Assembly (NCBI RefSeq): GCF_000003815.2
Contig: NC_049983.1
Location: 11,976,283-12,040,282 of the forward strand
Length of the DNA: 64,000 nt
From: Branchiostoma floridae
Taxonomy: Eukaryota > Chordata > Leptocardii > Amphioxiformes > Branchiostomatidae
Direction of reading: 5' to 3'
Shown: in pieces, positions 2,661-31,300 of the stretch
Layout: each line of letters begins with the position of its first letter
How positions within the stretch are numbered: position 1 is the stretch's first letter
Program-made: the position numbers and the translations under genes
Notes under the pieces: generated by a model
Told to the model about the DNA's origin: nothing
The model's database searches: none
What the model saw: only the letters and a program-made list of their open reading frames with translations

Positions 2661-5247
2661 CTTAAATGTATGACAAACGGTACATTCCTTCATCATCAAT
2701 TTCATACATCAAGAAAAAAATCGCAGGGCATAAGCAATATCCTCTTTCTGACGGTGACATTTTCTACCGTTGTGGATCCTCTCTTTGCTCCTAGGCAATG
2801 AATTGTAGATTATATGCTTAGCAAACTTACTTCATCATCCAAGCTGGACGTTTGGCCACGTCATGAATCACATAACGTAAATTACTTTTTGCGTGTCCCA
2901 CTACTACCTAAGGAGGGGAAGCTAGGATTTACGCTCTTAAAAAATAGGACCCTCATCGATATTACAGTTGCATTGATTCATCTGTCCCTTTGTATATCTC
3001 TGCTAGTTAATTTTTTTGTTAGATGGCGGCAATGGTATAAGTAAGTTCTTAACTTTAGTGCGTCCTCATCTTGTTTGTATTTGTTTATTTCTGTTTGCTC
3101 AATAAGAAAAAAAGAAAACCGTCTCATTTACTTAGGCAAGTTAGCTAACTGAACGTTTGGCAAGTATTCGAGTTAGCTTCGCAAACAGGGTTCCCTATTC
3201 GACNNNNNNNNNNNNNNNNNNNNNNNNNNNNNNNNNNNNNNNNNNNNNNNNNNNNNNNNNNNNNNNNNNNNNNNNNNNNNNNNNNNNNNNNNNNNNNNNN
3301 NNNCAGATCGTGATGAATAGCATCTGCTGTGGGATGTTCAGCTGCTTTAACATAGCTTCCTTCAGGGCAGTGGCATCCCAGCGGCCGCGCTGAATGTTCT
3401 CCACTATGCCACTGATGATGAAGACATCCTCAGGGGCTACGCGCCCATATCCCATCGTCTCCAGTTTGGTGACGTAGTCCTGCCGATGGAACTGAAGGAG
3501 TCGTTCTTCACCTTCCTCCTGCCCCCCAGCGAAGTAGGTCTTGTCGTCACGTCGTTTGTTTGCGACATCCTGGTCGAACTTGGAGCGGACGAACAACACC
3601 TTTTTTCCAATTTCTCTGGCCTTTGCTGCGATCCACACGGCGTTGTCGTGGACACGGTCACTTGTGAAGACGAGGAAAACATTGCATTCCCTCATCTTTT
3701 CGCCAAATTTTCTTGTGTATTCTTTCATATCAAATTTGGCAGATCGTCGACGTCCGCCGTCCTCTAGTTTGAAGAGAGCCCCTGGAAAGTCTACCAGGAT
3801 GACGTGGTCGTGTTCGGGATGAGGGTACTCTGCGGTGTCTGCCGTGGTCTCGATGGTGTCAACCGCTGCTGCCCCCGGGTCGCCAGCCTCCAGCCCCCGG
3901 AAGGAGTTGATGAAGGTGGATTTTCCCGCACCCGTGACACCGACGATGCCAATGCGGACGTACGCTTGCCCCATCCATGCTTCCTCATCAACGTGTTGCC
4001 CAACCTCCTCGTGGAGGGTTTGTATCATCTCTGCTGAAGATTGATCATTCGCATTCTTGACCTTGTCGGCAAACATGCGCAATTTCTCCTGCTCCTCGGG
4101 ACCAAGGTCGTCTTTTTTAATCTCCACACTGTATTAAGGAAGAAACATTTGAGGGTTGAGTTCGAAAATCGTAAACTTCGCCTATCCAGAGTGTGGTCAT
4201 TGTGTGTAACATTTCCAACCATATGGCTTCCACATGAGAATTTGAACCTCGAAACATCGCAATTTCGTTGAACTGGCCTGTTTCCACCATATAATTACGC
4301 AATCGGCTTCGCCCTGAAGGTGTCGCCAAAATTCACTTAAAAATCAGTATGTTTCAAAGAAAAATATTTTCTTTCGCGGCTAGATCATCTTTATGCATAT
4401 GGTAAATACATGTATGATATGTATGATAACAAGGCAAAATATTTACATGTAGACGATAAAAGGTGAATTTGTATCTGTATGATGAAATCGTTGATGAAGA
4501 TATGAGTGAAACATGAAATACTCATAGCTTTTGAAAATGTTTGATTTGAACAAATTTGCACAAATGCTGCAACTGAATCATCAACATGTTCGCTGAATAC
4601 TACTTCATTTGCCCCTGACCCACACCATCCGTTATCCAGAACATAAGTTATATATCTAGTAAGTACATGTGATTTTAGTGGTCTCTGTCGTTAATTATCG
4701 GAGATATAACCACCTCATTCGAGGATAATACCAATCAGTTTGGCATGCCAAAAACTCGCCTGAGAAACATGTATTTACTTTGCAATGGCTTGTTTTTAGT
4801 TTCACAGGTTGGGTAATTCCCCATACCTTGTTCCGCTTTCAGTTTTAAAATAGTCCTTTATAATGGCGCAGTTTCACATGTTGAGTCATCCTGATACTTG
4901 TTCCGCTTTCACTTTCAATGGTTATGTGTTAAATAGGGTGCGTTATGTGCACTTTTCCCTGCTTCAGCTGTAAGGATGGTTCATTTTTTGTTTGTTTTGA
5001 GGTTAGGATCTTATCCTGCGACAACCTGAAATTGGTTCGCGGGCAACCCAGCTTTTGACTAAGGTTGCCCACTAAGCAATCAGGCTATAAAGTATTTCGA
5101 ACCCTGCGTATTCACTATACCAGTACGATGACATAATGGTTACAATACTAGTATTCACCGTCCATCTGCAGATGTGGTCATAACTTCTGTCTGGTCAGAA
5201 TCTGGACTTCCTTGGGGTTCACAGGATTTGGACTGGTTGACTCCCAT
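2269..5247 (-). CDS. Immunity-related GTPase (IRG, p47-like), three exons with an assembly gap
   Basis: IRG proteins are large GTP-binding proteins of cell-autonomous immunity that act on vacuolar and other membranes in vertebrates. Exons: 5159-5247 (starts MGVNQSKS), about 3304-4128 (G domain) and 2269-2660 (helical C-terminus). Exon 1 ends with two bases (CG) and exon 2 supplies T, so they join in frame as R-V-E-I-K-K. The G domain shows the P-loop GVTGAGKS, a DFPG G3 motif, and RSKFD where IRGs usually carry TKVD. The N-terminal MG...S pattern fits N-myristoylation, as in some mouse IRGs. Exons read here total about 433 codons, but roughly 40-50 residues of the linker and helical region expected from mouse IRG organisation are absent and probably fall in the N gap at 3204-3303. 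The reading frame is otherwise open. Its function in this animal is inferred from family. Confidence 0.85.
3204..3303. other. Assembly gap (100 N)
   Basis: Exactly 100 N, a common placeholder for a gap of unknown length. On its 5' side in gene sense the IRG G-domain frame runs in as ...QQMLFITI. On the other side the same frame meets TAG within two codons, so the gap hides the exon end, an intron boundary and probably a short coding segment. Confidence 0.95.
3304..4128 (-). CDS. IRG G-domain exon (3' end lost in gap)
   Basis: The exon opens after an aatacag acceptor with T-GTG-GAG-ATT. It encodes a predicted N-terminal helix, then GVTGAGKSTFINSFRG (P-loop), a T-rich switch I region (DTIETTADTAEYPHP), VDFPG (G3), VFLVFTSDRVHDNAVWIA, and VLFVRSKFDQD (G4 variant). 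The last readable residues (LKQLNIPQQMLFITI) correspond to the end of the IRG G domain. Non-canonical codons at the 5' edge confirm that translation starts in an upstream exon. Confidence 0.88.
5159..5247 (-). CDS. IRG first coding exon with myristoylation-type start
   Basis: The ATG has a strong context (acaATGG) and encodes MGVNQSKS..., 29 codons plus two bases, before a GACG|GTGAAT donor. An in-frame upstream ATG at 5341-5343 would add a hydrophobic stretch (CSLILVVLLALLTG) but has a weak context; starting there would destroy the N-terminal glycine. I prefer the MG start. Confidence 0.72.
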
Positions 5248-5390
5248 TGTTTCCAACTTCCCTGTAAGCAACGCCAGTAAAACAACTAGTATCAATGAAC
5301 ATACACTACAAAGGTGAACTGAAGCCGTTAAGTTATACCACATGTACAAGCACTGTGTCCACGTTACATGACATGAACATTTCTTGTAGG

Positions 5391-5399
5391 CTATTTATA
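5391..5399 (-). promoter_or_regulatory. Candidate TATA box of the IRG gene
   Basis: The minus strand reads TATAAATAG about 145 bp upstream of the preferred IRG ATG. A start site 25-35 bp downstream would give a 5' UTR of roughly 110-120 nt. Confidence 0.45.
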
Positions 5400-5505
5400 A
5401 ACATAACTTATAATACGCGGCTTATAACTCATACATATTAAGGCATCAATAGGTACAAAATCAAATTGCGGAACAATTCAGAAACAAAGACGCTCGTGCT
5501 GGTAT

Positions 5506-5547
5506 CACGAAAATGAAAGCGCCACGATAGTGTCACGAAGGTGAAAG
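5506..5547. promoter_or_regulatory. Two ISRE/IRF-like direct repeats upstream of the IRG gene
   Basis: CACGAAAATGAAAG (5506-5519) and CACGAAGGTGAAAG (5534-5547) form a direct repeat with 28-bp spacing. The first contains GAAAATGAAA, matching the IRF/ISRE core GAAANNGAAA; the second is a one-base variant of the core. They lie about 110-155 bp upstream of the TATA box, a layout typical of interferon-type promoters in vertebrates. Binding is inferred. Confidence 0.4.
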
Positions 5548-7139
5548 TAGACATAATCGTTATTCTTTTCCAACACTATTGAATAGTGCAGTACAGGGGC
5601 CATTTCATTAGTTTGAGTCAGATACAACATTTCAATCAAGTGTATGGTTGCAGAAACGAGCAGAAACCACACATCCCCGTAAAGATTTGTGTCAGGACGT
5701 CGGTGTGACTGGACAACCCAGCCGCCGCCGTCTACCTGCGGAACTAGTTTGTTATATAAAAGACGGTATAAAATACGGTATGACAATCTAGAGATCCACG
5801 TACGAGTACACCATGGCAAGACATTGCAAAACAGATTCAGAAAAGAGAGTCTGAACCAACCTTTCTCAAAGCTATGCCAACGCAACAGACCACCTTGCAC
5901 AATGAGTCAGTTGTTTGTCACGGTGAGGGGAGGTGTAGTGTAAAAGTTGTCCTATTGGCTGGTATTTTTACCTGGGGATTTTTTTATAATAGCAGTGAAT
6001 TTCCCATGACAGAGGGCATGGTGGCCTTAAACAGTGTGGATCACAGATTTACTAGGCTCAAATACATATATCCCATCCCACTGAAATAGCCGACCTGTCT
6101 GTTCATGACCTTTTAGCTTCAGGTACATGCGTCATCAAAGAGTTCGTGTAGACAAATTACCGCGGCCCTTCACCAGGGCATTATTCTGTTTCTGTACTTG
6201 GTAACTAAAACCGCCTAACTTATTTCCCATCGCCCGTCACATGTGGGAAATGATGCGTTAACGCTTACCCTCGCCCGACAAGTTCAACAAAAACAAGCTA
6301 CGTGATTGGCTATATAGAAGTATGACCTGTAACCTGTAGGTGCGTTGGGACAGGTATGTTCATTCCACATCCGATTGACATATAACGTCAGCAACAAAAC
6401 CAGCCATGGCTTAACTTCACACAAACAAACCTTGCATATAGTGTAAAAAGTGACCATCGGAACGTTTCTGCGTCACGTCGAATGGGTATGTAAAAAAAGA
6501 ATCCGAAGTTGACTTTTTCTTTACGATATAGTCGAAGAAACGGAAAATATGTGTCATTTCGTGTAACATGTTCATTTTTATGCTGCTTTTACCAATTTCA
6601 AATGCGAACTTTCATATTTCATGGTTATCGCTCAACTTTCCACTGCCAGAAATGAACTTTCCTGCGTTTTTGTCATTACAGGCAACAAAGCACCACAAAA
6701 TGCTCGGAACGACTTTGCTTTCGCTCAAGCTCTGGAAGTATTTGTTGCGTGCCAGTAACAAAAGGGATAATGGGATACTAACCCGTTACATTGCAACGGC
6801 TGAGGAATGCGTGTTCATCGTTTCATGTCGACATGTCACCGATAAATTTAAAGGTGAGTTTGCTCTTCAGTTGCACCAATTTAAGACAGAACCCTAGAAT
6901 GTGAAATGTTACTGATCTGTGACCTGTCGGAAGGTTTTTGAATTTGGAAAGAATTTGATCAGCCTCCGTATCTATGTACGCGAGGTTCATGTATGCCCTA
7001 AACATCGCTGTTGCAATTTCATTTTGTTCCGATGAATGGCGTGCTTGACAGGTTGACCTGACAGCCTTGCACCAAAAGTAGGAAAACTTGGGAACATAAA
7101 ATATTGCTACAGTTGTTTCAGATCTGGCCATAACTTAAG
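5548..7139. other. Intergenic DNA, nothing recognised
   Basis: Between the IRG promoter region and the second repeat copy. Several short open frames occur on both strands, but none has recognisable motifs, splice context or sequence bias. TTTCCCA and AACTTTC words recur without clear structure. Confidence 0.4.
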
Positions 7140-9580
7140 TTTTGAACCTTATTGAGTTCAGATAAATCGAATGAATTGATTACATTTACATTATTCCAGC
7201 AACTGATACTGACATTATTTAAAGGCCAACGTTAGTAACTTAAGATAACATTATAAACTATGTTGCTATTATGATGGAATAACAGAGACCATGGAAATCA
7301 AAATTTCCTATTTTCTTATAGGATACTAGTACATGTCAACATCATCATAATCCTATAGTCCTAGTACATGTACACGTATAAAAAAAACAGTACTCTTAAG
7401 TGTTGTAAGGTTGGCTTCCAGATAACATTATAACAAAAGTTGCCATTTTCTCATCAACTATGTAGCTTTGCCTTAATTGCATAATTTTCATTTAACGATG
7501 CTGACCTGAACCTTACTTATAGCTGTCAAAAACTTCGAATTCCCATCACTTTTCATTCTCACTGATTGTGCAAACAAGGCCAACAGACCTTCCAACACAC
7601 TACGCTTCCTTCGCCAAGACGATTATGTTTCAACAGCGTTCGTGTAGCTGTTAGTGACCAAGATAACTCGTGAATACCTGGATGGGTGGTTATGATATTC
7701 AATATGTTGGTAGGTCTTAATGAGACCTAAAACGTACTAGCTTTTGGGCCCCCCTAGCCATATTCTCAGTTCAATGATAAACATTGTATCTGCATGTATT
7801 GCTATAAGACTTATAAAATCCTTAGATTGTACACAGTAGACATCAGAATGGAGACGTAAACACATCAACCTTAGTTCACTTTTATTGTGCTCTTCCTCAC
7901 AGAAACTGTGAAATGTTTCCAAAGTAATGACAAGTGCAGTGTACTGAACCTACAAAAGTTGGTTACATGTCAGTGAGATCAGCAAGCTACACAATTCAAT
8001 TACTACTAAAATGTGAAACCGAAACAAACAAAAATTCTAAATAACCAGGGAAATGAAAGGTTTACTAAGGGTAGATTTTTTGTAGTTGGTTTGATCAACA
8101 GTAATTAAGTTAATAAATTGTTACGCTGGTGAGGTAAAAAATTTACGCAATTAGTGAGTGTTACATGAAAAAGTGAAACATATAAAATTGCAAATAATCT
8201 AAGAAATTAGAATTTTCTAAATTTTTTTTCACAGTTTTCCACTTGACAACATGAATCAATAGAACTACAACATTTAAGAATGTTCATCACTTTGTACATT
8301 TTAAACTTATGACAATTATTTCCTTACCAGAGCAGGGATGTTATACATACTAATGTAACAAACTGTATGTTTGCTGTATTGACCAACAGAATATTCAACT
8401 TGTCAGAGACAGTCTTTGATTAAGAGATAGCAGAAATGGAACATTACTTATAAAAACTGTAAATTATGATCATACTCCTTGACAGTTCTCAAGCCATTAA
8501 GTAAAACCAGTATAAGTATACCAGTGATCTGACTTGTCAAGTAGTTCCCTTCCTCTGTGGCCAGTCATGTTCAAACCAAATATCAAGTTAGTTAGTTAGT
8601 TGCCAATAACAGTGATTTTTTCCAGTTGTTTGACAAGTACTGTATATACAATTCTACAAAAATACTGCTCTACGGATCACCTATTTATACGTGGAAGTTC
8701 TACTAGCTTTTGTTCATCTAGACTTTCTACAGTTTCTTGCTAAGACGAGCACCTATTCAGTAAATGCTATTTACAAGCAGGGTTTCCATGGCTGTTACAT
8801 GTACATCCATCGCAGACCTCATATCTTAAGATTTCTTAAGGATGCAACAAGTTCACCTTGTGTATTCATAATTCTCATACAACACAGATCTGTACACCAA
8901 CTACTTTTTAGACTTCCCTTTGCATTGCTCAGACACATCTGACATACAACAATGGGTTTTGTACATGTCAATCAGCAAGTTGGACTTGCCTACTATCCAC
9001 ATTAAATGATCACAGTTACTCCCTTTACTGGAGTGGACTGGTCATAAATAATGTTGTACAAAGTTTCATCTAATACCAGTTTATCCCAGGGATGGACAAC
9101 TGGTGAGTGTTACTGTAATGTAACAACATACTGTGTGCATGTGGCATTTCCACTTCTTCAAAACATGCATATGTGTCATAGATAGTACTGCACAGATCCA
9201 GTACTGCATGGTGTTATGAGAAGAAACACTTTACTTCTGCCAACCAACCCCAATGTGGAGTAACATAAGAAGGCTGATATTTCTGGATAATGCATAAAAG
9301 GACCAAAATTACATGATATTAGGATCTCATCATTCACCACAGATTACCCATGTTCACCCCAAATAGGCTAAAATATCTTCATGTTTTAACAATAGAAATA
9401 GTTTCAAAGATTTTAGAAATCATACCAAAAGTCTAGAGATTACCCTAGAATCTACATCCACATCAACAACAGCATAGTTACACACATTGGCTGTATATTT
9501 TATATAGTAATATCAGAACTACTCTGTAGCTCATATGCATCTCCCACTGTATTTACATCAAGAGTCGGATCACACCACTC
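7140..9580. repeat. Diverged direct duplication, copy 2 (with about 1.1 kb extra)
   Basis: Same order of landmarks as 885-1975, with about 8015-9148 present only here. It sits downstream of the MiT/TFE stop codon and would be part of a long 3' UTR if the AATAAA at 7881-7886 (minus) is used. No coding content is seen. Confidence 0.75.
7881..7886 (-). other. Candidate polyadenylation signal (AATAAA, minus strand)
   Basis: The hexamer is followed in minus sense by AAGTGAACTAAGG. It is about 2.2 kb downstream of the MiT/TFE stop and is conserved in the duplicate at 1347-1352. A shorter 3' UTR ending elsewhere is possible. Confidence 0.3.
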
Positions 9581-10073
9581 CATATAATCACATCAAACAT
9601 TTCAATATTCTCATCGCCTCAATACCAACACTTCACTCAGTCAGACATCTAGCCATGTCTGCCACAATCTGTTATCTTCCACTTTCAATCATATATATAC
9701 AACAACATTTGTTAACCTCTAGCATTCTAAGTTCCCAGGTAACCAGTACAAATGTGGTGCAATCTGCCACCTGTAGAATGCTCAGGGTTATACCTGCTGT
9801 CTGTTTTGAGATGGAAAGTTTGTCAACAGTGTTGCATGTCCTGTCATTCACCAACTCAAAGTCAGCTTGTGGCCCATTGTGTTGTTGTCCATTCTTGATT
9901 TTCCCAAATCACCATCTTTTTCCTCTATCGCATGATTCTATGAAGTGTCATTCTTGTACACCTGGTAGTATTATTCAATGCTAATGTCTAGTGTAGTCAC
10001 AAAATATCAGTAGTCCTAGTGGTTTGCCTTTTTAAGCCTGTAGTTCCAGTATGATTTGATAGATGGCTCATTG

Positions 10074-10373
10074 TCATTGGAGCTGCAGGAGATCAGGATG
10101 GTCTTCCATACTGTTGATGCTGCTGCGTCGGCTGCCGTCAGGAGACACTGTGGCCGACAACATGGGGTCTCCGCCCGGGCCTTCGTCCATCATGTCCTCT
10201 AACGTGATTGTGATGGCTGGAGCCGGGGCTTCGGATGGTGAGACTGCACCTCCCCCCTCAGCCAACAGGAGGCCCTCGTGTCTCATGAACTGTTCGGTGA
10301 TTTGTGACGTGGAGGTGTCGTTGGTGAGGGGCGTCGTCGGGATGCTGTGGGCACGACAGTGCATCTCCAACTC
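10074..10373 (-). CDS. Mitf: MiT/TFE exon 7: end of zipper and C-terminal tail
   Basis: Acceptor tttccag|GAG. It encodes ELEMHCRAH (directly continuing RIQ from exon 6), a Thr/Ser/Pro-rich linker, an acidic LEDMMDEG motif comparable to LEDILMDD of MITF, then [17 protein letters not shown] and the stop. The serine cluster is the conserved C-terminal regulatory motif of the family. It is 100 codons including the stop. Confidence 0.93.
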   Translation of the reverse strand, partial: ELEMHCRAHSIPTTPLTNDTSTSQITEQFMRHEGLLLAEGGGAVSPSEAPAPAITITLEDMMDEGPGGDPMLSATVSPDGSRRSSINSMEDHPDLLQLQ

Positions 10374-13300
10374 CTGGAAAGAGTGACACAAACAACAGAG
10401 TTGATATATAACTGTACAGCAGCTAAATGTAGATTATCAAAATGCTATTGGTCTTGACTTTATTTGGACCCACAATTAGCTTGGTCAACAGACAGTGTAG
10501 CTATACTATGGTACAACCTACAATGTATTCATAATTCTGTCAAAAAACAGGCTATATGAACAATCTTTATTATACTTTATTATATATATTAACACTTTTT
10601 CTGATAAACATTACCTTTACAGTTGTTGCAACTAGTATTAGAGATCGTCTGTTTGTTTACCTGTATTCTGAGCAACATTTTCCTGTTCATCTGCTCCATC
10701 TGTTTCTGCCTCTCCTCCATGTGCCTCATACGCTCGTGTTCCTTCTTCAGCCGCCTGATGTAGTCCACAGAGGCCTTCAGGATCGTGCCCTTATTCCAGC
10801 GCATGTCACTAATAAAACAAATTGCAGAAGATTGTCAACACCAGCAATAACTTTTATATCTTTTTTCATTCCGAAGAAAACCTGCAAGGTACAAATGTAC
10901 TTTTAAAAATATTTGATTCTACCATTAATATCCTGCCTTGATTTCTAGTAATTTTTTCAGGGAATGTCTTCTTTGGATGGTCCAGAGACTATACAATCAG
11001 CCATTTCATGAGAATATTGGCATATCTCTAACTTCCATTTCTTTCATTGTCCACAGATGTGCGTGAAGATGTGTGTGTTGACCTGAGTCTCATAGGAATA
11101 GAAACTGAGTACTTTCACAAAAACTGTATACTAACTACTGACTATAGGACACTTGTATGTTGGCTTAAAACAGCAGGTATGATACTTACGGGTCTGCTGT
11201 CTTTGGCAGCAGAGTTCCCAGCTCCTTGATTCGGTCATTGATGTTAAATCTTCTCCGTCTCTCAACTGGAATGATGATAATATTGTTTGGTTCTCAAAAG
11301 ACTTCAAACTCCAGATAAAACTTGCTGGTAATATACACTGTTTCCTTACTCTATCAGTGTTCCATAGAATTTTAAATGAGAGGTACCTTTCATCTTTGAG
11401 AGGGATGTATTCACCAAAACAAAAAAATTCAGAACACTGATAGATATGATATATACTGAAAGGGCCAACCTTACCCCCAATGCCTTAGCTTACACCTGTT
11501 AAACTATCACCAGTTTAATATGATTACAGTAATGTGGGGCACCATGAATACACCAGGCCTTCACCAGTTAGTTGGCAGAAACACAGGGTTAACAATGGCC
11601 TTCAGCCACAAGGGCCACAGCCTTTCTGTTGACATTGTATGCTTGTGTAGAGGGACAGAAAGACGGAGACATGAAGACAGAGCAGTGGGAGAGAAAATCT
11701 TATACCAATGTGGCATGTCTCCACTGTATAACAAGGACATGATTAGGCAGGCAGGTAGGCAGGATTAGAGACATTTTTTTGTTATTCGAAAGAAAGAATA
11801 CCTTGGTGCCTTTGATACTCTTATGTCTTTCTTTTTAATTTTAGCATAGAAAGGAACAAAGCTGAAAATGAATGACATGATGTTGGGGAAAGATACAGCC
11901 AGGGGTGAGAGGGACTAGCAGGGCTGTGAAAAGAGAACATGACCTACAGTTGACTCTGTTGTAAGGGTAGCCATAGTCAGGGAGGGTAATTGGACAATAG
12001 GAGGGGGGTGATAAGCCAAGGTAGGAGGGATTAATTATGAACTGAAGACAGGTTAGTAAGAAGGCTGATTAAACAGTTTCTGAAACTGTGACAGCAAAAC
12101 ATTACAGGTTTATGGAACAAGGAATGAAAAGAAATGAAAGGAAAAAAACGCAGGAGTGAGAGGTGGTTTGAAGATGAAGGGATGGGCTGATGAAAGACAA
12201 GAAGTAGATGGAGAAGGATCAGGATAGAAGGTTGGATCAGGGTAGAAGGATGGAATCAGGGAGTGTGAGTATGGAAGGATGGTCTGCATACTTATGTTGT
12301 GGTTGTCTTTCTTCTGCCTGTCCTTGGCCAGAGCCATGGCCTGTTCAGGTACCCCACCTATCCACCCCACCATCTCAGAATAGCCCCACTCATCTGCAAT
12401 GGAAGGAAAGGTTGGCCCATGTCAAATAACACACCTCCATCCCCCCTTCTAGCACCATCCTTGAGATGTAGACATCAACATGATTCTACTACAACAAGTG
12501 AGGACATACAAGACATTCTCCCTATCTATCTCCTTTTCCATTGTTATATAATACATAAATGCATACACATCTGGGAAGTCAAAAAGTGAATGATATTCAA
12601 CGATAATGAGGAGTGAAAAATTCTGTAGACAGTTGGAAATTTCAAAGAGTAAGAAATGGAAAGAAAGAGAACATATTCTGACAGCACTTTCTTGAATTAT
12701 TACTTTCTAATACATGATTCTAAAACCTGAATTCATTACCATGCTCATAATACTTACTTAACAAAAAAATTATCAACTCTGAAAGCTAATTTGTGATTTA
12801 GCTGAAAATCAGACATTGATCAAAGTTTTTTCCCCAAAGAGTCTTGAATTATGACTGTAACAGCTGTGTCTACATGGTACTTACTCATGTTATGGTTGTC
12901 CTTCTTCTGTCTGTCCTTTGCCAGAGCCTTCAGCTCACTCTCGCTCATCTGTACCGGCTCCTTCTTGATGTTGGTGAGGTCAGCGGGACAGGACGCCGAT
13001 GTGTTGGCGGTGACCATCGGGGTGAGGGAACCCACCGTACCGAACCCATCCAGCAGGCTGGACGTGAGCGGCATCTACAGAACAAACAGAACCAATCAGG
13101 ACATGTTATGAGATGTTGTAGGTGTCATCACATTTGTCTTCTTTAACCTTACCATTATGTCAGGTTATATAAGAAATATTTCTTGACTTGGCCTGGTATG
13201 TAACGGTGACAGCATCAAGAGAAATGAAGGCAACACTACGGGTAATTACCTTTAGCTTCTGAGAAAAATCAATAATTCTAAATAAGGCCACACCGATTTA

Positions 13301-16300
13301 ATTTCTTGATTCACGGATTCGCTCGCTCCTATTTTTTGGAAAATAAAATAAAAATGAAAATTACCACTTAGCAAATTTTCACCATTAATGAAACCATTCA
13401 CCAACTTTCTTGTGTAGCAAATTGGGCTTTATATTATAAGCTCCTTAAAGTGTGGGTACAGGTGCTGTTACTGTACAAAAATAGTGTTTTTGTACTTTTT
13501 TCAAGCTGAAAACTTTTTTCTTTATGTTTTGGATTAGCCGTTACCTTTACCCCAACAGTTTTACAATTTTTATTTTCATTTTTATTTCGCCCTCTCGCTC
13601 CATATTTTCTATGAAAAAATCCGTGAACCAAGAAATTAAATTGGTGTGACCTAAGTCACTGATTATAAGATAACAAATGGGTACTGTACAGTAGCTAATG
13701 CTTCTTATGACTGATTATTCCCATGACTGTTGGTTTATCATATCATGTATATTTCACATCCTTGAGCTGTTGACTTAAATCATTTGAGGATTATCCCATC
13801 AAAACACCTGGTTTACACACTTGTTTGAAATTCAATTGGAGCAGTATATGCATGTCAGTCACTACTGAACGAAAAATTTCTCATTATACAAATTATTACT
13901 GGTAGAAATGCAGTCTTTTGGTGCATAATCACACACTGAGTCGTGTTGTTTTCAAGCAACATATATCATGCTAGTGCTGCAGCTGTATGTACTGTTTTGC
14001 CACAGGCAATACCGACATAAAAATGTTGCACAAAGCATGGTAGCTGCAGGCAGGTGTTGATGGGACAGGACTTGGAAGACAATAAGTTATGTTTCCCTTT
14101 GTTACACCTGAGCTGGCAAACCCTGCACAAACCCTAAGATCTTGCCATGTGTCTAGCCTTACTAAATCACTTTTCTAGTTGCTAGCCTTCTCCTAGCCCC
14201 AACAGGCTGGTCAGAGAGAGGCAGCCAGACAGCAAGAGATTGTGTAACACAGGCTAGCCATGTGCCCCAATGCCTTACTTCTTGTCTTTACTGTTTGAAT
14301 GTCTGCACGTGTGCTCGCTACACGTGCTTGTCAGACTGCACCAGTGACTACACAGAACTGACTCTTACTTCATGTACTTTGTACTTTTATCGGGGTCACA
14401 GTCCCGAACACCTAAGTTCCATCCTAAATTATGGATCAATCAAACTTTCAAATCATTCTAATTTTTCTAATTTCATGTAAAATATATGGCATTTTGCTTA
14501 CTATTTTTTCCTGGAGAGGCCAAGACAATTCAAGAGCTGTAAAGTAATTATGACTTACTATCTAAATGACAGCCATCAATAAGACAATTCATTAGAGTCT
14601 GCAAATCTAAATATGAAAAGAATTGTAAACTTAGACTACTTACTTCGACAATGACTGTTGAGACATGTTTGGATATGTTGGAAGTACTATGTCTCCTGGA
14701 ACACAGGATGGCCTTGTGTACAGGCATGGTGGAAGCCTGCCTGCGTGTACTACTGGTTCAGTTTACACCTATCCCACCCCCTGTACTTTGTTCATCTTTT
14801 ATTGTTCTGCCAACAGTGTGATAACAGTGCAAACACCTGGTTGGCTGAGATCTGACAGCGGTGGGGGCGGGACTGCTATACAAACTTTGACCACTGGGTA
14901 CAAATAAAGCTGCAGAATGGATCAATCAATGGGAATGTGTGTGGAAATGTTAGTCAATTTTTTCAGCTTACACGATGTCTATTTTTGTTTCTGCTCCTAT
15001 TTATAAAATTCATTCTTGTTAACTTCTGCAATTACTTCATGATCCCCCAGGGACAGATTTGTGTCAACTTATCCACCCCTAAATTCCCATTGGTCTATTC
15101 CTGATCTGATTGTTTAAATTCACAATGTACACATCTGCTGGGGACATGGGACTTGTCTCACTTTATGATTATAAGAACACTTCAAATAAGTCTGTCATCT
15201 TTAAACAATGATGTAACTTTTATCCAAAGCTCACATTTCTGTTTTAGATACTGGATTTGCAAGTTGGTTTGAAACTTACACACAAACTGTATTTTTCACC
15301 TGTATACCATCCATGTAGCTGTCACTGGTCATAGCTGTATATGCTGTTTGCAAAACAATAATCAACTTACTCAAATTTAGTTTGTGTACATCTGGCTTGC
15401 AGAGAACAATGTAACTAGAGGGAGGCACTGGCCAACACCAGCAATTACAATCAGTCAATGAGGTTCCTTCCCTAACTTTGATGTCACTTCCAAACACTCT
15501 AACTGTAGCCCTGTTAAGTGTCTTCACTATACTGTATGTATACATCTTCTAACAGCTAACAAGAAATTTGACTTTACTTTCTTCAATCCCATGTTAACCA
15601 ACTAGATCAATTCTTTGATTTCCACGTGAAGATCCTTCACAGATATGGACATTCCATGCAAATCATGTCCTTATCTTCCCATTGGGTGGGTGCTGTGCAG
15701 TGTGTCTACTATCAGCAGGATTATGCAATCATATTGTGCAATCAACAGACAACTGTGTTTCCACACCTCTATGCGAAATACTCTGATCATCTCTCAAAAC
15801 ACTTTTTATTTCTTTTTCTATCGACAATTGCACAGCCAAACCTTATTTCTTTTTGCTTCTAAACAAGTGTGTCTACTATCAGCAGGATTATGCAGTCACA
15901 TAGTGCAATTTACAGACAACTGTGTTTCACAATGTGTGAAATACTCTGAACATCTCTCAAACACTTGTCTTTTTCTATGGACAATTACACAGCCAAAGCT
16001 CCTTTCTTTTGCTTCTACACAATCTGGCAACAATTTTGGAGCTGAAGCTTATTTCTTAGCCTGATTTAATCTCACTTATAGCAGCCTGCCCAACATTTGC
16101 TGGCCTCCGCGGGGAGGGGCCAGTTACAGCCCCGGACAGCAGAGTTTGTGTTACACAGACAACTTATTTCTCTGCTGTCCAAATCTGTTCAGCTAACCTC
16201 AGCACAACCTTTACCCTACCAAAGGTTAACGAGAACGCACTAGGTGAGGCCCCAGGCCTTCTCAATGTCTAAAGTCCTCTATGTTTGGTGCTCAACAAAT

Positions 16301-19300
16301 CCACCTTTGGACTGACATGTTTGTATGAAACATCCAACACAAACAATAAACACATATTTGTTTAGGCCTGTTCTCACAAATAACCGATCACTGCCAACTG
16401 CATATACATATATATGCACATATCTTGCACCTATTAAATAAAACAGAAAGGCTAAAACATTCTGAACTTCGATGATGATTACAGCTACACAATGTTGTTT
16501 GCTTGTTGTTGTGTAAAGATTAGACATGTTTGTGTGTGATGTTGTGAAAGTGTTACTCACCGTGGATGAGATCTGCTGCATGGGAGCGTCCAGGAAGTTG
16601 AAACTGTCGTCGAAGCTGGACTCCAGGCTGATGATGTCATCAATAACATCGTCCATCTACAGGGCACACATCGAAAACACAATTGTCAGATACAGACAGT
16701 CTCATCACACATATTGATTCATCATCAAATAAACTCTGCTTAAAGATGCTACAATATTTGCCTATTTTAGTATTTACCTAACTTGAAGCTTTTCCGCTGG
16801 AACATAGAGAAGCTAATATGATACTTGATTTTCCCCGCTAGGTGTCACCTTGCCAGGAGGTGACATTGGGAACAATCACACTCACCACAATTAATACTGT
16901 ATCCTCACTGATGTTCTTCACAACCAACTATCTTCTGGTACAGAATTTGCTGATCTACTTTAGATTCTGAGAGGCGAGTTTGCTTATTTTCTGCTAGGTA
17001 AATCACTATGATAGAGATAACAACAATCTAATCAGAGCTGCTGACAGCTGCTCATCAGTCAACCCTGGCAGCAACAAAGTCCTGCTTACCTCAGAGTAGC
17101 ATGTCTTCATATCACACAGATGATACAAAAGCACATCAACATGACAAAATTTAGAGATAGGAGGCTAATATAACAACAGAAGGCCCTGAGATCTTTACAA
17201 TCTATGCTGTGGTTGTTTCTACGAGCGTTCAAACCTGGCACAAATAACAACTCAAGAGTATTAGACGCACAGGCCAGTTAAAGTTGATAGTGCATGCCTA
17301 GCACATTTTCGTACTTGATATGAGATACACTACACTCTATTACTTGCCAACCAGTGAAAACATGCATGTCAGTGGCCTTGAAGATCATCTGCGCATCTGA
17401 ATATCATTTGTGTAAAATGAGTACCAACAAGGCAGCTAAAATTTCATCACAAAGTAAATCATTGTTGCTATCTTTTTGATCAGCATTTTGCAACACGTCC
17501 ATAAAGCTCCCAAAACAGATTTGAGTATGATGATATTTAAAATGTGTCCAGTTAGATGACATATAGCCTGATAAGGGGAGGTTTCTATTTGTGTGAGGCC
17601 ACCTGTGACCATTACAGCGATGTAAACAACTTTGTCCTTGAGCACATGTCCTGGTCACCTCTAGCTACACCCTTACTACAATATTATCTCTCGTGAATCA
17701 TAGCTAACCTCTTCCATGTACACTAGACAGATAGCCTAATTATAAGCATGGCAAAATATGGCAGGTTCAATGACACAGTAGTCTGAGTAAAAGACATTGA
17801 AGGTTTTACAAGCAACTAACTTTTTACCAATATTTCATAAGTTACAGTAATTTTCACATTATTTTAGTACTTAGATCAATATGAAGGTTTTACAAGCAAC
17901 TAACTTTTTACCAATCTTTCATAACTTACAGTAATTTTCACATTCTCTTATACTAAGATCAATATCAAGAGCTGGTACAATTGAATTTATAACACCTTGT
18001 CCCATGAAGTAACAAAAAGATCTTCCAAACCTGGCCATAATTGCAGATATGCTCCACTACCTTGTTGAGAAATGCTGCTCTGGCTGTTCCATAATATCTT
18101 TCATCCATTCTTATGATTCTATCAGGATCAGGTTGTGGTAACTGCTGGGTCTTCAGTTTTGGACCTATGTGTATGACTGACTGGCTCTGGGCAAGCAGCA
18201 GCCTAGACTGACACCTGTTTTCAAGATACCATAACACTTGCTGTCCATCAACAGACAACCAAGTCACCTACTGTTCACAGACAAACATGTTGCACGTATT
18301 TACATAAATTACAGCAAGTAGAATTGCTAGAAAACCAAGACAGGAAAAAATACAACCAGAATAAAAGAATTCAAAGTCAGAAGGCAAGGGTCAGCAGCAG
18401 TATGTATCCAACAAATGTCCAAAGGATAAAATAGACCTCTATCCATTTTGTCCACTTGGATGCCCCAGAACCCATTAAGCCATTAGTGTTAACCTTGAAC
18501 AGTAAAGGACTTGTGGGATATATTCAAATTGCAGTTTCACATTATGCATCCCTTGCTATTGAAATTTTGCCACCATGAAAAGAAAGTGAATGACAGTTTT
18601 ATTTGGCCTCTTGTCTGTTCAAAGTTTGTCTACAACGTCTGCCAAGCTTAATTGTTTCCTCAACCAATTGCTTAATTTACAATAACAAAGGCTTAATTTT
18701 CATTGTTTGGCATCATTTGCCTAATCCCAGAACAAAAATAAAATTTTCTGTCTTGTTAAAGGAAGCGATTCCCAAGTTGATAACAAACAATATACATATA
18801 TTCATATTTCTTTTTTCATTAATATTATAATAGCAATCAATCTTTGGTAGACGAGTAATTCTACTAGCAGCCTATAACATAGTTTGTCCACACAGAATGG
18901 CTAGTTGCTTGAAATGCTGTCCATATGGCATTCAAATACATATAACATCAAAACCAAGGGTAAACAGGTCTCCTGATATATTTTGTCACCCAACTCATTT
19001 ACCATGGAACTATGCAATTATCTCTTGTATCTTATAATAAAGGAGCCTTATTGCTGTTAAAAATGTCTAACCTAAAGAACTCTGGTACTTTCAAAAGGTG
19101 TGTTATCAAACAAGAAAATAAAATGTTTGTCATTTTACCTAAAGGGAATTCCATATGTTAGATACAATGTACAACATGACAAAATATCCCTTTAAAACAA
19201 TCCAATTTTGAGAATAGAGTAGCAAGGTGGCCCTTTTTTGCACATGTTTGTACATTAAGCAACGTACCTCAAGTTTGAGGTGAAGCAAATGAAATGGCTG

Positions 19301-22300
19301 CATTTTCTTTTATTAGAGACCTCATGCTTTGCTACCTACAGTCACAGATACATATTAGACAGTATAAACATCTCTGCCCTTCAGGAAATGTCACAATGTC
19401 CTCTACAAGCCCTTGAACTCCTGACTGTAGAAACTCAAAATTTTCAACCATACAACTTATCATAAGACCTGAGGCCAAGAGATTGATTATCAGTAAATGC
19501 TTCATTCCCATTGATATCATTTGAATAAGGTCCAATATCATTTACAAACAGATGAAAGTAACAAGCTGACATTTGTGACTTAAAACATCCACTTGAAAAT
19601 ACTCTAAACACCATCTTAGACACTAATGGGGCCGTTTAAGTGGCATGTTGGGGCTCCATATGTTAGGAATTTAGATGTTTGAAAGAAAAAATAAAATAAT
19701 ATTTGTTTTGACAGTCAAGAGTCTACACATCTGATATTTGCACCAATACACTACTATTTCCCTTACTAGCAACTAAAATCATGCATGCTCAACTATACTT
19801 CGATGACAATCCTCAATTTATACTCTCATCTGATACATCCAGGATTCTGATCCATAACCATCATCATCATGCAGCAACAGAATATAATGTATAACCTACA
19901 GCATGACACAAGAACGAAGCACACTCCACATCCCTACCTTCTTCAGACAGAACTCCACACCGTTCTTCTGCATGTCATACTCTTGTAAGATGCTAAGCCT
20001 GATCCACTTTCTGTTTTCCTCGTCAATGGGAATCTCTTCCATTTTTTTCTCCAACCAAAAGGAAGCTGTGGTGCTCACACAAATAGATACGGTAGAATGT
20101 GGCTTTCTGTAAGCCGGGCACCCCGTTTTTACTACGCATCCTGCAGGGATTGGCCGCCCTAATCTAGTCATGATCAGATGACCTTCATCCCTTTGCTAGG
20201 TCGTTGTCGTGGCGATCCATCTACCATTAGTAGGGTAATCTAGCTGCTCTGTCCAATGGATGGATGGCTCGCAGACACGCCCACTGGCACCCAAGGGACA
20301 TGTGTCCAAAAGACTCATGTGGGCATGAGGAGAGGCATACCTACCATATCATAAACAGGAATAAGGGCAAGTGAATGGAAAGGACAGGAAAGTTTCCACT
20401 GAGAACCGTGAAGGTTATGTCGGGTGAAAAACCCTCGAAAGGTTACCCAAGTTTAAACATAGTTTCCTCTCCAGCAGTAACCTTCTCCTCAAAATCAATA
20501 GACATTGAGGACAAACTTATCTACTCCCTCCTTAATATTCCTTAAAAACAACAGTTTAAATATCTAAATCTTAGACAATGTCTCAGAAGAGAAAATTGCT
20601 TCTCTAAAAAAACCCAAGTAAACAACCCTCAACAACTAACAGTGAAAAGAACTGAATCTTTGTAAAAGGGGAGGTATTTAAGTTAAAGCTTTTGAATTTG
20701 TAGAACATTGGGTGGACAATTAACCAACTAAATGCTTCAAGTTCAATAAACTCTCACAAATTCTTTTGTTATATTTGGTCAATCAACCATATAAATGTGT
20801 TGTTTGCTTGCATTGCTTTGAGTGAAAATAACTTTTGAATGAAAATAGCCCTATGTATATAGGTCTGCATAGCTTGAAGGGTAACGACTTCAACCAAGCC
20901 TTTGACTCTGAAAGTTATCTCCTACGATTGGCTATGATGTGGCTTTGGCCTTATGCTTATGCTTATGGATTAGACAAATTGTTCTTGGATCAAGACCATA
21001 CCAATGTTATCCACTTGGTCCCTTGCTAAACAACATTGACTAAAGAATGGAACATTTCATGGAGTATTTTCTAGAACAAATACATGGAGAAAATGTATGG
21101 TAGTTCTTGCACTGATTTCCTCTTGAACTCTCATTTCATGTGACATAAATATGTTTTTTTCACTCCTTTGTCAATCCTTCCGTTGAAAAATCTGGATAAG
21201 ATAAGCACTGACTGTATATGGCTTAATTAAAACTCGGTTAGGATACAAGAAAAAAATACCAAAGGGCTACGACCTGGCATAACCTCTACATGAATGGAAA
21301 CATTTTGAACATTAATATGTGATACGCATATGGCAGACAATAATGAGTGTCCTTGTTCCATACAAGAGGGGACCAATTGCCAAAAGTCTGCCTTTCCAAG
21401 TGAAAAATCAGCTCCCATTTGTTTCTGGCATGATCAATATTTAATCGCTGAAAGTCAGGGGTTACATTGGACATTGGTCCTGGCAGCCACTGAGCTGGAA
21501 ACAACACGAGTTTTCCACCCTAGGTAATTTTCCTGATGGGTAAGTATTCCTGATCCTATGACGCACATTCCTCTACACCCACGTTTGACGAAGAGAGCGT
21601 AATAGCTTCAGAAGATGTGGTCGAGTTGTAGGCTATTCCACTTATTGCAGGAGACTTCTTTGAAAAAGATCTGGGCATACAAGCAACTTCTGCATATACC
21701 AAACATTAAATTTGGAAAAATACATTTCTGAAAACCAATATGCCAAAGAGTTGTAATTTTGCTCAGTAGTACATTCAGACTTCTTGATATGCATGACTGC
21801 ATACATTTAGGTTCAAAAAAAGTGGGGCGATTCGGGGAGAGTTTCATAACAACAGCTACGATACATATATCAGAACAGGTGACCTACCTTTCTTTGGGGC
21901 CTTTTGACAACCTTTAATAACATTGGAGGGTGGCGCTTCTTGACCACACCATTGGACCATATGTTTCTGCTTCCATAAGTTTTGCGGAGTGTATATTCCC
22001 CTGTATGAGATGGACTCTCTGTTGCTACTTTCTTTTTACCTCCACTTCCCGTAGCAATGTTAAGGCCTATAAGTATGTGGTTCTTTGCTTCCCTCACTTC
22101 ATGATGCATTTCTGCCTCACTCCTCCTACCGCCATTCTTTCCTGCTGCCATAGGATCAACTACTCTTTTCTTTGCTGAATTTGACGAGTCAATTTTACAA
22201 GTGCCACAAGCACACTGTAATCTACCTTCTGAATGTGACATCGCTCTAGAGACAGATCTTAATATCTAGCAAATGAGCTGGTGACTTTTCTGGGAAAAAG

Positions 22301-28300: not shown

Positions 28301-31300
28301 AATCTATTTTGACAAGGGATCTATCTGTTAAGATTCAATTTGACAATTTGTGTTTTCCATCTGATCTGTTTTTTTCACTGAAGGTACTTTCTGATATGCG
28401 ATTCAGAAACAAGAAGTATAGCTAATGAATGACCTGTGCTGCTTCTCTTCAGTTGCTAACTAGATTTCCACCTTTAAAGAATTCGACAGTCCTTTACAAC
28501 TCATCCTCACCTTGAGAATCTGCGCAGGAACCTCTGTGGTGGTGGGGAGGGAGTGAGGAACGTTGATGGCGGAGGCCTGTGATGAGTTGATCTTCACGGC
28601 GGACGACTGTTGAACCTGAACGATCCGGTCGCGCCGCTCCTGCTCCTGCATCTGCTCCCGCATCAGCTGCATCTTCAGCGCCGTGCGGCTCGACATCGTG
28701 CTGGTTTTGAAGGTAGGCTTCCCACTGCAACAAGAGTTAGGTATGATTAAACAACAACAACAAGACATAAACATTGCACTGGTTTTGAAGGTAGGCTTTC
28801 CACTGCAACAAGAGTTAGGTATGATTAAACAGCAACAACAAGACATAAATATTGTGCTGGTTTTGAAGGTAGGCTTCCCACTGCAACAAGAGTTAGGTAT
28901 GATTAAACAGCAACAACAAGACATAAACATTGCACTGGTTTTGAAGGTAGGCTTTCCACTGCAACAAGAGTTAGGTATGATTAAACAGCAACAACAAGAC
29001 ATAAACACTGCGCTGGTTTTGAAGGTAGGCTTCCCGCTTTAATAAGAGTTAGGTATTATTAAACAGCAACAAGACATAAACATTGCACTGATTTTGAAGG
29101 TAGGCTTCCCACTGCAACAAGAGTTAGGTATGATTAAACAACAACAACAAGACATAAACATTGTGCTGGTTTTGAAGGTAGGCTTCCCACTGCAACAAGA
29201 GTTAGGTATGATTAAACAACAATAACAAGACATAAAAACATCATTCATTAGACTTCTTTTAGAGCAAAATGGACTCTCAAATCTTTTCCCTTTCCATGAC
29301 ACCTAATGCTGTCTTTGCTCTTTTACCATTTAGTATAATTTTGCAGTCATTTAGCAGAAAAATTAGTTAGATGACAGGTAAGTCCCAGACAGGGAGATTG
29401 TGTAATACCCGTCACATTTGGCGAAAATCGATCGGACGACAATTCTGCGGCAATTGCCCGAGCATCGCTTATAATACATGTAATAACTTTATTGCACAAC
29501 AATTGTGCAAGGTACAAAGTATGACTTATATGTGACAGGGACCGTTTTCAGGTGAAAAATAAGCGCAGCCCTCTGTCGATCTTAAATATGGCCGATCTTC
29601 CATCGATGCGCCCGAAGATTGTGGATAATGTGACAGGCGTATAAGCCCTTTCTCTATGACAGAGATTCTGTCAACTATGTATAGACAATCATGATTGAAT
29701 GCTAAAGCGATTTGCATGATGACGACTCTGTATGCTGGCATATTACATTTCCTTCAATCATCAAATCATCATTTTTCTACATTTGACAATAAAAGTGTGA
29801 TGAAGTCTTGAAATGTCTTCCTAGACTCCCACTGTGTCATCCACTTAGACCACAACTCATTTTCTTATTGTCAAGCATGGGACAAATGGTGCGGAAGACA
29901 TGCTTTCTGTGGTGTTTACAATTCAAAAAGAAAGTTCTTCTAGAGCTCGAGGTCTCGCTTGTTTGCCAAGATGATGACCCACTAATTGACAAATTTTCAT
30001 AGACTGGGTAATCCTTCCCTGTGATTGGGACAGCTTGTACATAGACCATGGAGCATGAATACATAAGCTTATAGACAAAGCAAAAAATACTCCAAACACT
30101 CTTCTTAGTATTATTTATTGCAAAAGTTTCAAGTTAAGTATTGGATACATTTAACAGTAGAATGGGTTGATATATTATGAGCTTCAGGGCCGTGAGACTA
30201 GTTATACGAAAAACCTGTTTTCCACAGCAAATTTATTGACATATTCTACAAATGAGACATGAAATAAATGTTAAATTGTATGTTTTAAAATGACCCAAGG
30301 ACAGCCTAGAATGACCCTGCTATTACTGAACTATGTATGTGCCTGCAGGTGTACAGGTGGCCATTTGGTACCCCAGGATTCAGGAATTCTTTTCTGTCTA
30401 CATGTATATTATGACATTAAATTGTACTATTTGTAGATGAGTTTCCATGTATCATTAGCACTACATGCAGAAGATTACAGTATATCAATCAGTTTTAAGG
30501 GCAGCACAAGACTATTTCGCATGCCAATTGTTCGCACATCAGTTAGACTTTGGTCAACTCCCATTGTATCTTTGCTAGGCCCACTGTTAGCAAGTGCTAT
30601 TATCATTAAACATTGAGCCAGCGGTTACCACTACATTTTGTATGGATGGTACCCATGCTAAATCTACCTATGGATAAAGATGTCAAAGCAAAATTAACAC
30701 CTGATAATGATTGTACCACCAGTAAGCGACAATCACAATGGAATATTTTAGACAGATTTACAACTTGTCTCTGCAATTACCTCAATTGCTGTACCCTAGA
30801 AAGACTACATTAGGTGAAGTTACCTTATTCTTATGCTTACTTAGAATTGAAGAATGTGGCACTGGTATGTTCATAGTGATAAACATACATGGCTAAGGGC
30901 ACTGCATAGTCTTTTGGCTGAAGCACATAGCAAGAAATACACACCAGAATAAAATTTACACCTGCAGTGGACCTGCTGGTTTCTCCAGAAAATATATGTA
31001 GACCCCCAACAGGGAGTGGCCTTTCACCAACTTTGTCAGAAAAACTGACCACATACTTTCACTTATTCACATTCTCCATAAAATTAATAATTGAACCCAT
31101 TTCAGGTCAGCCATGGTCAGTTCTTTCCCCTTAGAATAGTGTAATATACTTACGTGAATCAAAATACAGATTTGGACAGACAAGGTGCATGCTTTAACTT
31201 GGTTTAAGCACATCTTCTTTGACTAGATACACTGCCCACGAGAAGTAACTACTAAAGAAGCAAGAAAGATGAAATCAGTTGGGATGATATAGAAGAGATG

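Follow-up and report, generated by a model that had tools for sequence, protein, structure and literature searches.

Results

A MiT/TFE gene of seven coding exons

Factors of the MiT family govern pigment cells and lysosome genes. One gene of this kind lies on the minus strand of a 64,000-nt stretch of the Branchiostoma floridae genome (the window, i.e. the whole of the DNA that was analysed), and we rebuilt its coding sequence from seven exons:

28511..28696, minus strand: exon 1, coding part from the ATG, encoding N-terminal sequence matched by Pfam PF15951
24279..24539, minus strand: exon 2 of the rebuilt coding sequence
16561..16656, minus strand: exon 3 of the rebuilt coding sequence
12885..13074, minus strand: exon 4, 190 nt, entered in phase 0 and left in phase 1, holding the original copy of the core described below and an IKKE motif
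11190..11265, minus strand: exon 5, 76 nt, beginning with a split Ile codon and ending with the first two bases of a Pro codon
10661..10808, minus strand: exon 6 of the rebuilt coding sequence
10074..10373, minus strand: exon 7 of the rebuilt coding sequence, coding part up to the stop codon

Exons 4 and 5, as delimited in an initial annotation of this DNA, both hold in the translating seven-exon sequence, and so does the identity proposed there for the gene. The product passes the cut-off for the MITF/TFEB/TFEC/TFE3 N-terminal domain (PF15951, E 1.1e-35; the Pfam query held four residues, V and VSN, outside the final exon edges) and matches the HLH domain PF00010, and the best solved-structure matches of its bHLH-zipper are MITF and TFEB chains. 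A protein search of the 513-Mb assembly (431 contigs), which scores only the best candidates from a first look, returned eight matches with E up to 1. This same locus accounts for three of the eight, through its exons 4, 5 and 6, and the five matches elsewhere are weak, at 29-39% identity and E 6e-4 to 0.46. At this search sensitivity we found one MiT locus in the assembly, and we rejected a second MiT gene or a retrocopy on the same count and at the same sensitivity. Note that the protein search did not report the 14-codon duplicate described below and is therefore blind to copies as short as this one.

The window holds several further features. On the minus strand, a 78-nt tandem array (28701-29236, 6.9 copies, 91% match) stops 4 nt short of the exon 1 start codon; its unit contains the acceptor-like ...actcttgttgcag together with the bases found just before the start codon, and the CAG is kept in six of the seven units found, and exon 1 may be preceded by a series of acceptors that compete. 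An 84-nt direct repeat pair (17798-17969) lies between exons 2 and 3, and direct repeats at a spacing of ~157-167 nt (15699-16057) lie between exons 3 and 4. The intron upstream of exon 4 also carries a 35-nt inverted repeat (13285-13319 and 13618-13652, 91% complementary, 298 nt between the arms) that looks like a small MITE-kind transposon. Finally, a minus-strand open frame at 3195-4133 encodes an interferon-inducible GTPase domain (PF05049, E 1.8e-22, 3417-4133) and is cut by an assembly N run (100 N in the window).

A duplicated coding block between exons 4 and 5

The intron between exons 4 and 5 contains a second copy of the end of exon 4, and the features that concern it are the following:

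12292..12393, minus strand: candidate duplicated basic-region exon (the block), 102 nt, 34 codons, phase 1-1, starting with a split-codon Asn
12394..12411, minus strand: 3' splice acceptor of the block, cctttccttccattgcag, top-scoring of the gene's seven scored acceptors
12286..12291, minus strand: 5' splice donor of the block, GTATGC (taa/GTATGC, the slash marking the exon edge), bottom-scoring of the gene's seven scored donors
12289..12335, minus strand: 47-nt core in the block, including the first three donor bases (repeat family D4; local alignment score 69)
12882..12928, minus strand: original core, located at the 3' end of exon 4 (repeat family D4)
12933..12938, minus strand: internal donor-like GTGAGC in exon 4 (GAGA/GTGAGC, last exonic base 12939), a possible switch point to the duplicate

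Our analysis confirms what had been noticed here at first, a symmetric 102-nt block that is open in phase 1 and repeats the core of exon 4. A repeat search over the region 5000-25000 of the window (minimum length 30) returned 12289-12335 and 12882-12928 as a family of two copies, 47 nt long and 89% identical with five mismatches; the last 44 nt of the block plus the GTA of its donor match the end of exon 4. On the minus strand the block (12393-12292) is preceded by ...ccttccattgcag and followed by gtatgc. Phase 0 contains a stop, exon 4, the block and exon 5 can be joined into an open reading in frame, and the seven-exon product has no stop before its end whether the block is included or skipped. 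The local score of 69 between the cores compares with best shuffle scores (n = 200 each) of 31 and 35, which come from two somewhat smaller comparisons of sequence beside the cores and not from the core-core comparison. By repeat search and local alignment, the homology to the neighbouring exon exceeds chance, and the block has AG and GT sites with a frame that fits the neighbouring exons. We conclude that a duplicated, frame-keeping coding block is present inside an intron of the MiT gene, an observation that is now better supported than at first reading by the acceptor of the block, the frame of the whole gene and the genome search. None of the queries that matched a known protein covered the 20 residues before the core, which could be intron sequence that is open by chance.

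Five codons differ within the 14-codon core, and the original reading of these differences stands: four are silent (GCA/GCC, AGA/AGG, AAG/AAA, CAT/CAC), and the fifth, ATG/ATA, places Ile for Met. Site counting, which is rough for 14 codons, gives a dS of 0.97 and a dN of 0.029. At such a dS the duplicate may predate the separation of lancelet species and be present in others; B. floridae and B. lanceolatum are reported to have diverged about 72 million years ago (PMC6305399). The probability of at most one replaced codon from five random changes is 0.005, 0.010 and 0.016 at kappa 1, 2 and 4 (0.006-0.017 with stops excluded). If the duplicate alone were free and exon 4 held, the probability of at most one replacement would be 0.07, 0.008, 0.0008 and 0.0001 at dS 0.25, 0.4, 0.55 and 0.7. 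The test covers 14 codons in a stretch that was noticed because its protein matches, which is an ascertainment bias; with P of 0.005-0.017 from five changes only, the codon pattern suggests selection on the protein, as had been put forward.

Compared over ~490 nt downstream and ~470 nt upstream, the sequences beside the cores score 23 and 20, with a 95% shuffle level of 25 for both. Flank similarity does not rise above shuffles, and the duplication is therefore either old or small, two cases which the flank test cannot tell apart; for the same reason a duplicate of recent date, or one made by the assembly, is unlikely. Queried together with its edges, the block has one match in the 513-Mb assembly, in a search that likewise scores only the best candidates from a first look. 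An assembly or haplotype artefact is thus unlikely, given the five differences in 47 nt between the cores, the flanks that do not align above shuffles and the single assembly match, and recent gene conversion from exon 4 is unlikely with a silent distance near 1. We also rejected a local RNA hairpin governing the choice, since the fold of the block plus its splice sites has z +1.47 and 192 of 200 shuffles fold equally well or better. An alternative terminal exon is improbable: the frame does continue past the block (ORF 12110-12421), but the stretch from there to exon 5 contains two ATTAAA and no AATAAA.

Splice signals of the block

Splice sites were scored with a weight table of vertebrate-like frequencies not trained on lancelet. 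On these weights the block acceptor reaches 12.3 bits; it is second in rank among 4041 AG sites on the minus strand of the window and outscores all six remaining acceptors of the gene (11.5, 8.6, 7.9, 4.4, 3.1 and 2.3 bits). The block donor, scored with the same vertebrate-like weights, reaches 2.7 bits and ranks 656th of 4197 minus-strand GT sites, and the other six donors of the gene score 11.6, 11.2, 10.4, 7.6, 6.2 and 5.0 bits. When the weight table is left aside and AG sites are judged by pyrimidine count plus YAG, 15 of 4044 on the minus strand equal the block acceptor (itself counted), and 21 of 3756 do so on the plus strand. A strong acceptor paired with a weak donor is often how optionally included exons look, and the weak donor of the block would suit partial inclusion.

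Minus-strand acceptor-donor pairs that score at least as high as the block at both sites and lie 60-300 nt apart, at a multiple of three, occur twice in the window, and both are open in phase 1: the block itself and 58342-58154. Because the block itself set the thresholds, this number describes rarity and is no test. The second pair (58154-58342, minus strand) has a hydrophobic, membrane-like translation and is perhaps an exon of another gene.

Predicted protein products

Both of the splicing routes that had been proposed, addition of the block and a switch to it, give in-frame products, so that three in-frame products are possible in all: exon 4-exon 5, exon 4-block-exon 5, and exon 4 cut at GAGA/GTGAGC-block-exon 5. 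Relative to the first, the second is 102 nt longer and the third 48 nt longer. In both block-containing products the block's copy abuts the IERRRR of exon 5. The tandem product carries two basic segments in frame, as had been claimed, but the insert between the cores, first given as 19 residues, comes to 20 when the split-codon Asn is counted. Exon 4 cut at GAGA/GTGAGC can also be joined directly to exon 5, in frame and 54 nt shorter; this junction from 12939 drops 18 residues including the first half of the basic region, and the result is possibly a non-DNA-binding form.

In MITF numbering (ACIFPT = A187-T192, carried through the aligned MITF chain), both copies keep K201, R203, K205, K206, H209 and N210, two of which, R203 and H209, we take to be DNA contacts of MITF; the lysine equivalent to K206 is MiT-specific and stands within QKKDNHN in both. 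The sole difference between the copies is at position 211, which is Leu in MITF, Met in exon 4 and Ile in the block, and both have Asp at position 202, where MITF has Glu. With either copy the Ile212 codon keeps its first base. In published work, MITF K206 touches the backbone of the DNA and target choice shifts when this lysine is acetylated (PMC10539308), and the mi-wh mutation affects Ile212, where the effect on DNA binding varies with splice variants (PMC11508060). The Pfam HLH score is 56.3 bits with the exon 4 copy and 56.2 with the block copy, and the solved MITF chain 4ati_A is matched at 154 and 150 bits, respectively. With position 211 as the only difference, the flank and the spacing should change more than DNA recognition does. 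The initial annotation had suggested that splicing could change DNA contact or spacing; a changed flank and spacing are plausible, and a changed contact is the weaker part of that claim.

The IKKE of exon 4 aligns with the MITF K182 region, K182 being a SUMO site in MITF (PMC11467436). It lies upstream of both exon 4 donors and is kept in all forms. From IKKE to the working basic helix, the distance grows by 34 residues with the block included and by 16 if exon 4 is cut early.

Discussion

The block is best explained as a tandem-duplicated cassette exon of the lancelet MiT/TFE (MITF-TFEB-TFE3 type) gene that is optionally included, a reading to which we assign a probability of about 0.52. It is one of four readings in which the block would be spliced; taken jointly, these make splicing of the block quite likely, and the tandem-basic cassette would be the most probable spliced form.

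We infer the inclusion and the alternative use of the block, and the effect that would result, from the DNA sequence. With the block skipped, the basic region would take its N-terminal half from exon 4. With the block included, its own copy would be joined to IERRRR and act as the working basic region, and that of exon 4 would come to lie 34 residues farther upstream, separated from it by a new Gly/Trp-rich linker. DNA recognition would then be nearly unchanged, and what would be altered is the flank and the distance from the basic helix to the activation/SUMO segment, comparable to the effect of the vertebrate MITF exon 6A hexapeptide. A tentative extension, which we hold to be rather doubtful, is that the included form has two tandem basic segments, one at the HLH and the other 34 residues away from its usual place, where it would serve as an additional positively charged segment competent for DNA, import or acetylation, and that this represents a splice-controlled tuning of MiT DNA binding in the lancelet, independent of vertebrate exon 6A.

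The alternative that survives best, although we consider it unlikely, is that the block is the relic of an old partial duplication which has lost its splicing and kept its frame by luck. The block is short and its donor weak, the homology is limited to the 3' end of exon 4, and the selection test is small, all of which such a relic would share. A free copy, however, should have accumulated ~7-17 replacements at dS 0.4-1.0 (4 at dS 0.25), and one is observed; likewise, the acceptor would be expected to decay, yet that of the block is the best in the gene.

Less probable still is a mutually exclusive arrangement, in which exon 4 ends early at GAGA/GTGAGC and the block replaces the basic region, leaving a single basic region with a new N-terminal flank. 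On the vertebrate-like weights this internal donor, at 5.6 bits, is a little stronger than the normal one of exon 4 at 5.0 bits; the resulting protein stays in frame and has a normal HLH, and the site lies one codon from the position of the vertebrate exon 5/6 junction. As a donor, however, it can be a matter of chance, because its AGT GAG encodes a Ser-Glu that MITF shares, and 199 of the 4197 minus-strand GT sites (itself counted) score at least as well. Moreover, with a phase 1 end to the first copy and a symmetric block, both copies together remain in frame, and the frame alone does not enforce mutual exclusion.

Two further readings are very improbable. The block could serve as an alternative first exon, transcribed from within the intron and translated from the ATG just before ALAK into a short bHLH-zipper protein without an activation domain; it does contain two in-frame ATGs, the second at 12337 in the context CAGGCCATGG (gccATGG), and vertebrate MITF has known alternative first exons (PMC2839965), but a first exon needs no strong acceptor, and the block opens with an out-of-frame ATG. 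A constitutive exon, present in nearly all transcripts like the duplicated helix exon of vertebrate EBF (PMC2394523), would suit the strong acceptor and the symmetric phase, but hardly a donor that is the weakest of the gene, and it would leave the near-unchanged old copy in exon 4 without an explanation.

Vertebrates already tune the flank of the MiT basic region by splicing. If the optional cassette is real, the lancelet would have arrived at an independent solution through a duplicated DNA-contacting exon, which would make this junction a repeated target of regulation, and the two forms would offer a natural test of what the flank and the spacing of the basic helix do. Mitf has been reported in pigment cells of the lancelet frontal eye (PMC7417673).

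Tandem duplicated exons occur in ~10% of animal genes according to a 2002 survey, and at least some unannotated ones may be expressed (PMC9013439). Like tandem duplicated and mutually exclusive exons, the lancelet block neighbours its homologue, but its homology covers only ~45 nt at the 3' end of the exon and the frame allows both copies. In the open full-text literature we recognised no description of a duplicated basic-region exon in a MiT gene among the matches listed, a scope outside of which most subscription papers fall, and the main text of a report on human tandem duplicated exons does not mention MITF (PMC9741552). Pax6 exon 5a is also an alternative exon that alters a DNA-binding domain in chordates; it is a paired-domain insertion, not described as a duplicate, and lancelet introns were searched for it in vain (PMC4488758).

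The nearest precedent for the addition of a duplicated HLH-motif exon is helix 2 of COE/EBF (H2d-H2a), where such an exon was tandem-duplicated in a chordate transcription factor and is included beside the original (PMC2394523). The EBF duplicate concerns a helix of the dimerisation motif, whereas that of lancelet MiT concerns the DNA-contacting basic region; moreover, the EBF duplicate is reported as a vertebrate exon absent from B. floridae, with skipping unseen in gnathostomes (PMC2394523).

Vertebrate MITF exon 6A/6B (hexapeptide ACIFPT, MITF(+)/(-)) belongs to the same gene family as the lancelet block and shares with it the place upstream of ALAK and phase 1, and alternative splicing there alters the N-terminal flank of the basic region. 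The earlier remark that no such exon is known in vertebrate MiT genes therefore holds for sequence, in which there is no counterpart, but not for position and phase, in which exon 6A/6B is one; we know of no second basic-region copy in vertebrate MITF. Exon 6 of human MITF-M has two acceptors at its 5' end, and the choice between them can leave out 18 nt, c.560-577 (PMC2839965), from which it follows that the exon 5/6 junction falls after the first base of codon 187, in phase 1, just upstream of ESEARALAK. The hexapeptide confers a slightly higher DNA affinity (PMC7140685), its choice is MEK-ERK-dependent (PMC4363485), and mouse mi-sp is without it (PMC11467436). Whereas vertebrate MITF uses two acceptors of one exon to vary six residues, the lancelet has a separate 34-codon block; its exon 4 is longer, contains the original copy and has no intron at the vertebrate exon 5/6 point, and the block starts in phase 1 upstream of its ALAK, like vertebrate exon 6. 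The donors of the block and of exon 4 lie in phase 1 inside the Ile212 codon (A/TT), as presumably does the vertebrate MITF exon boundary. The end of lancelet exon 5, after the second base of its Pro codon, matches the human boundary at Pro237, which is implied by c.710+1, p.P237fs (PMC5069774). With an exon 4 that spans the junction without an intron and a block that starts like exon 6, the block resembles a separate 'exon 6' standing beside a fused one, and the duplicated piece is possibly a copy of an ancestral separate exon.
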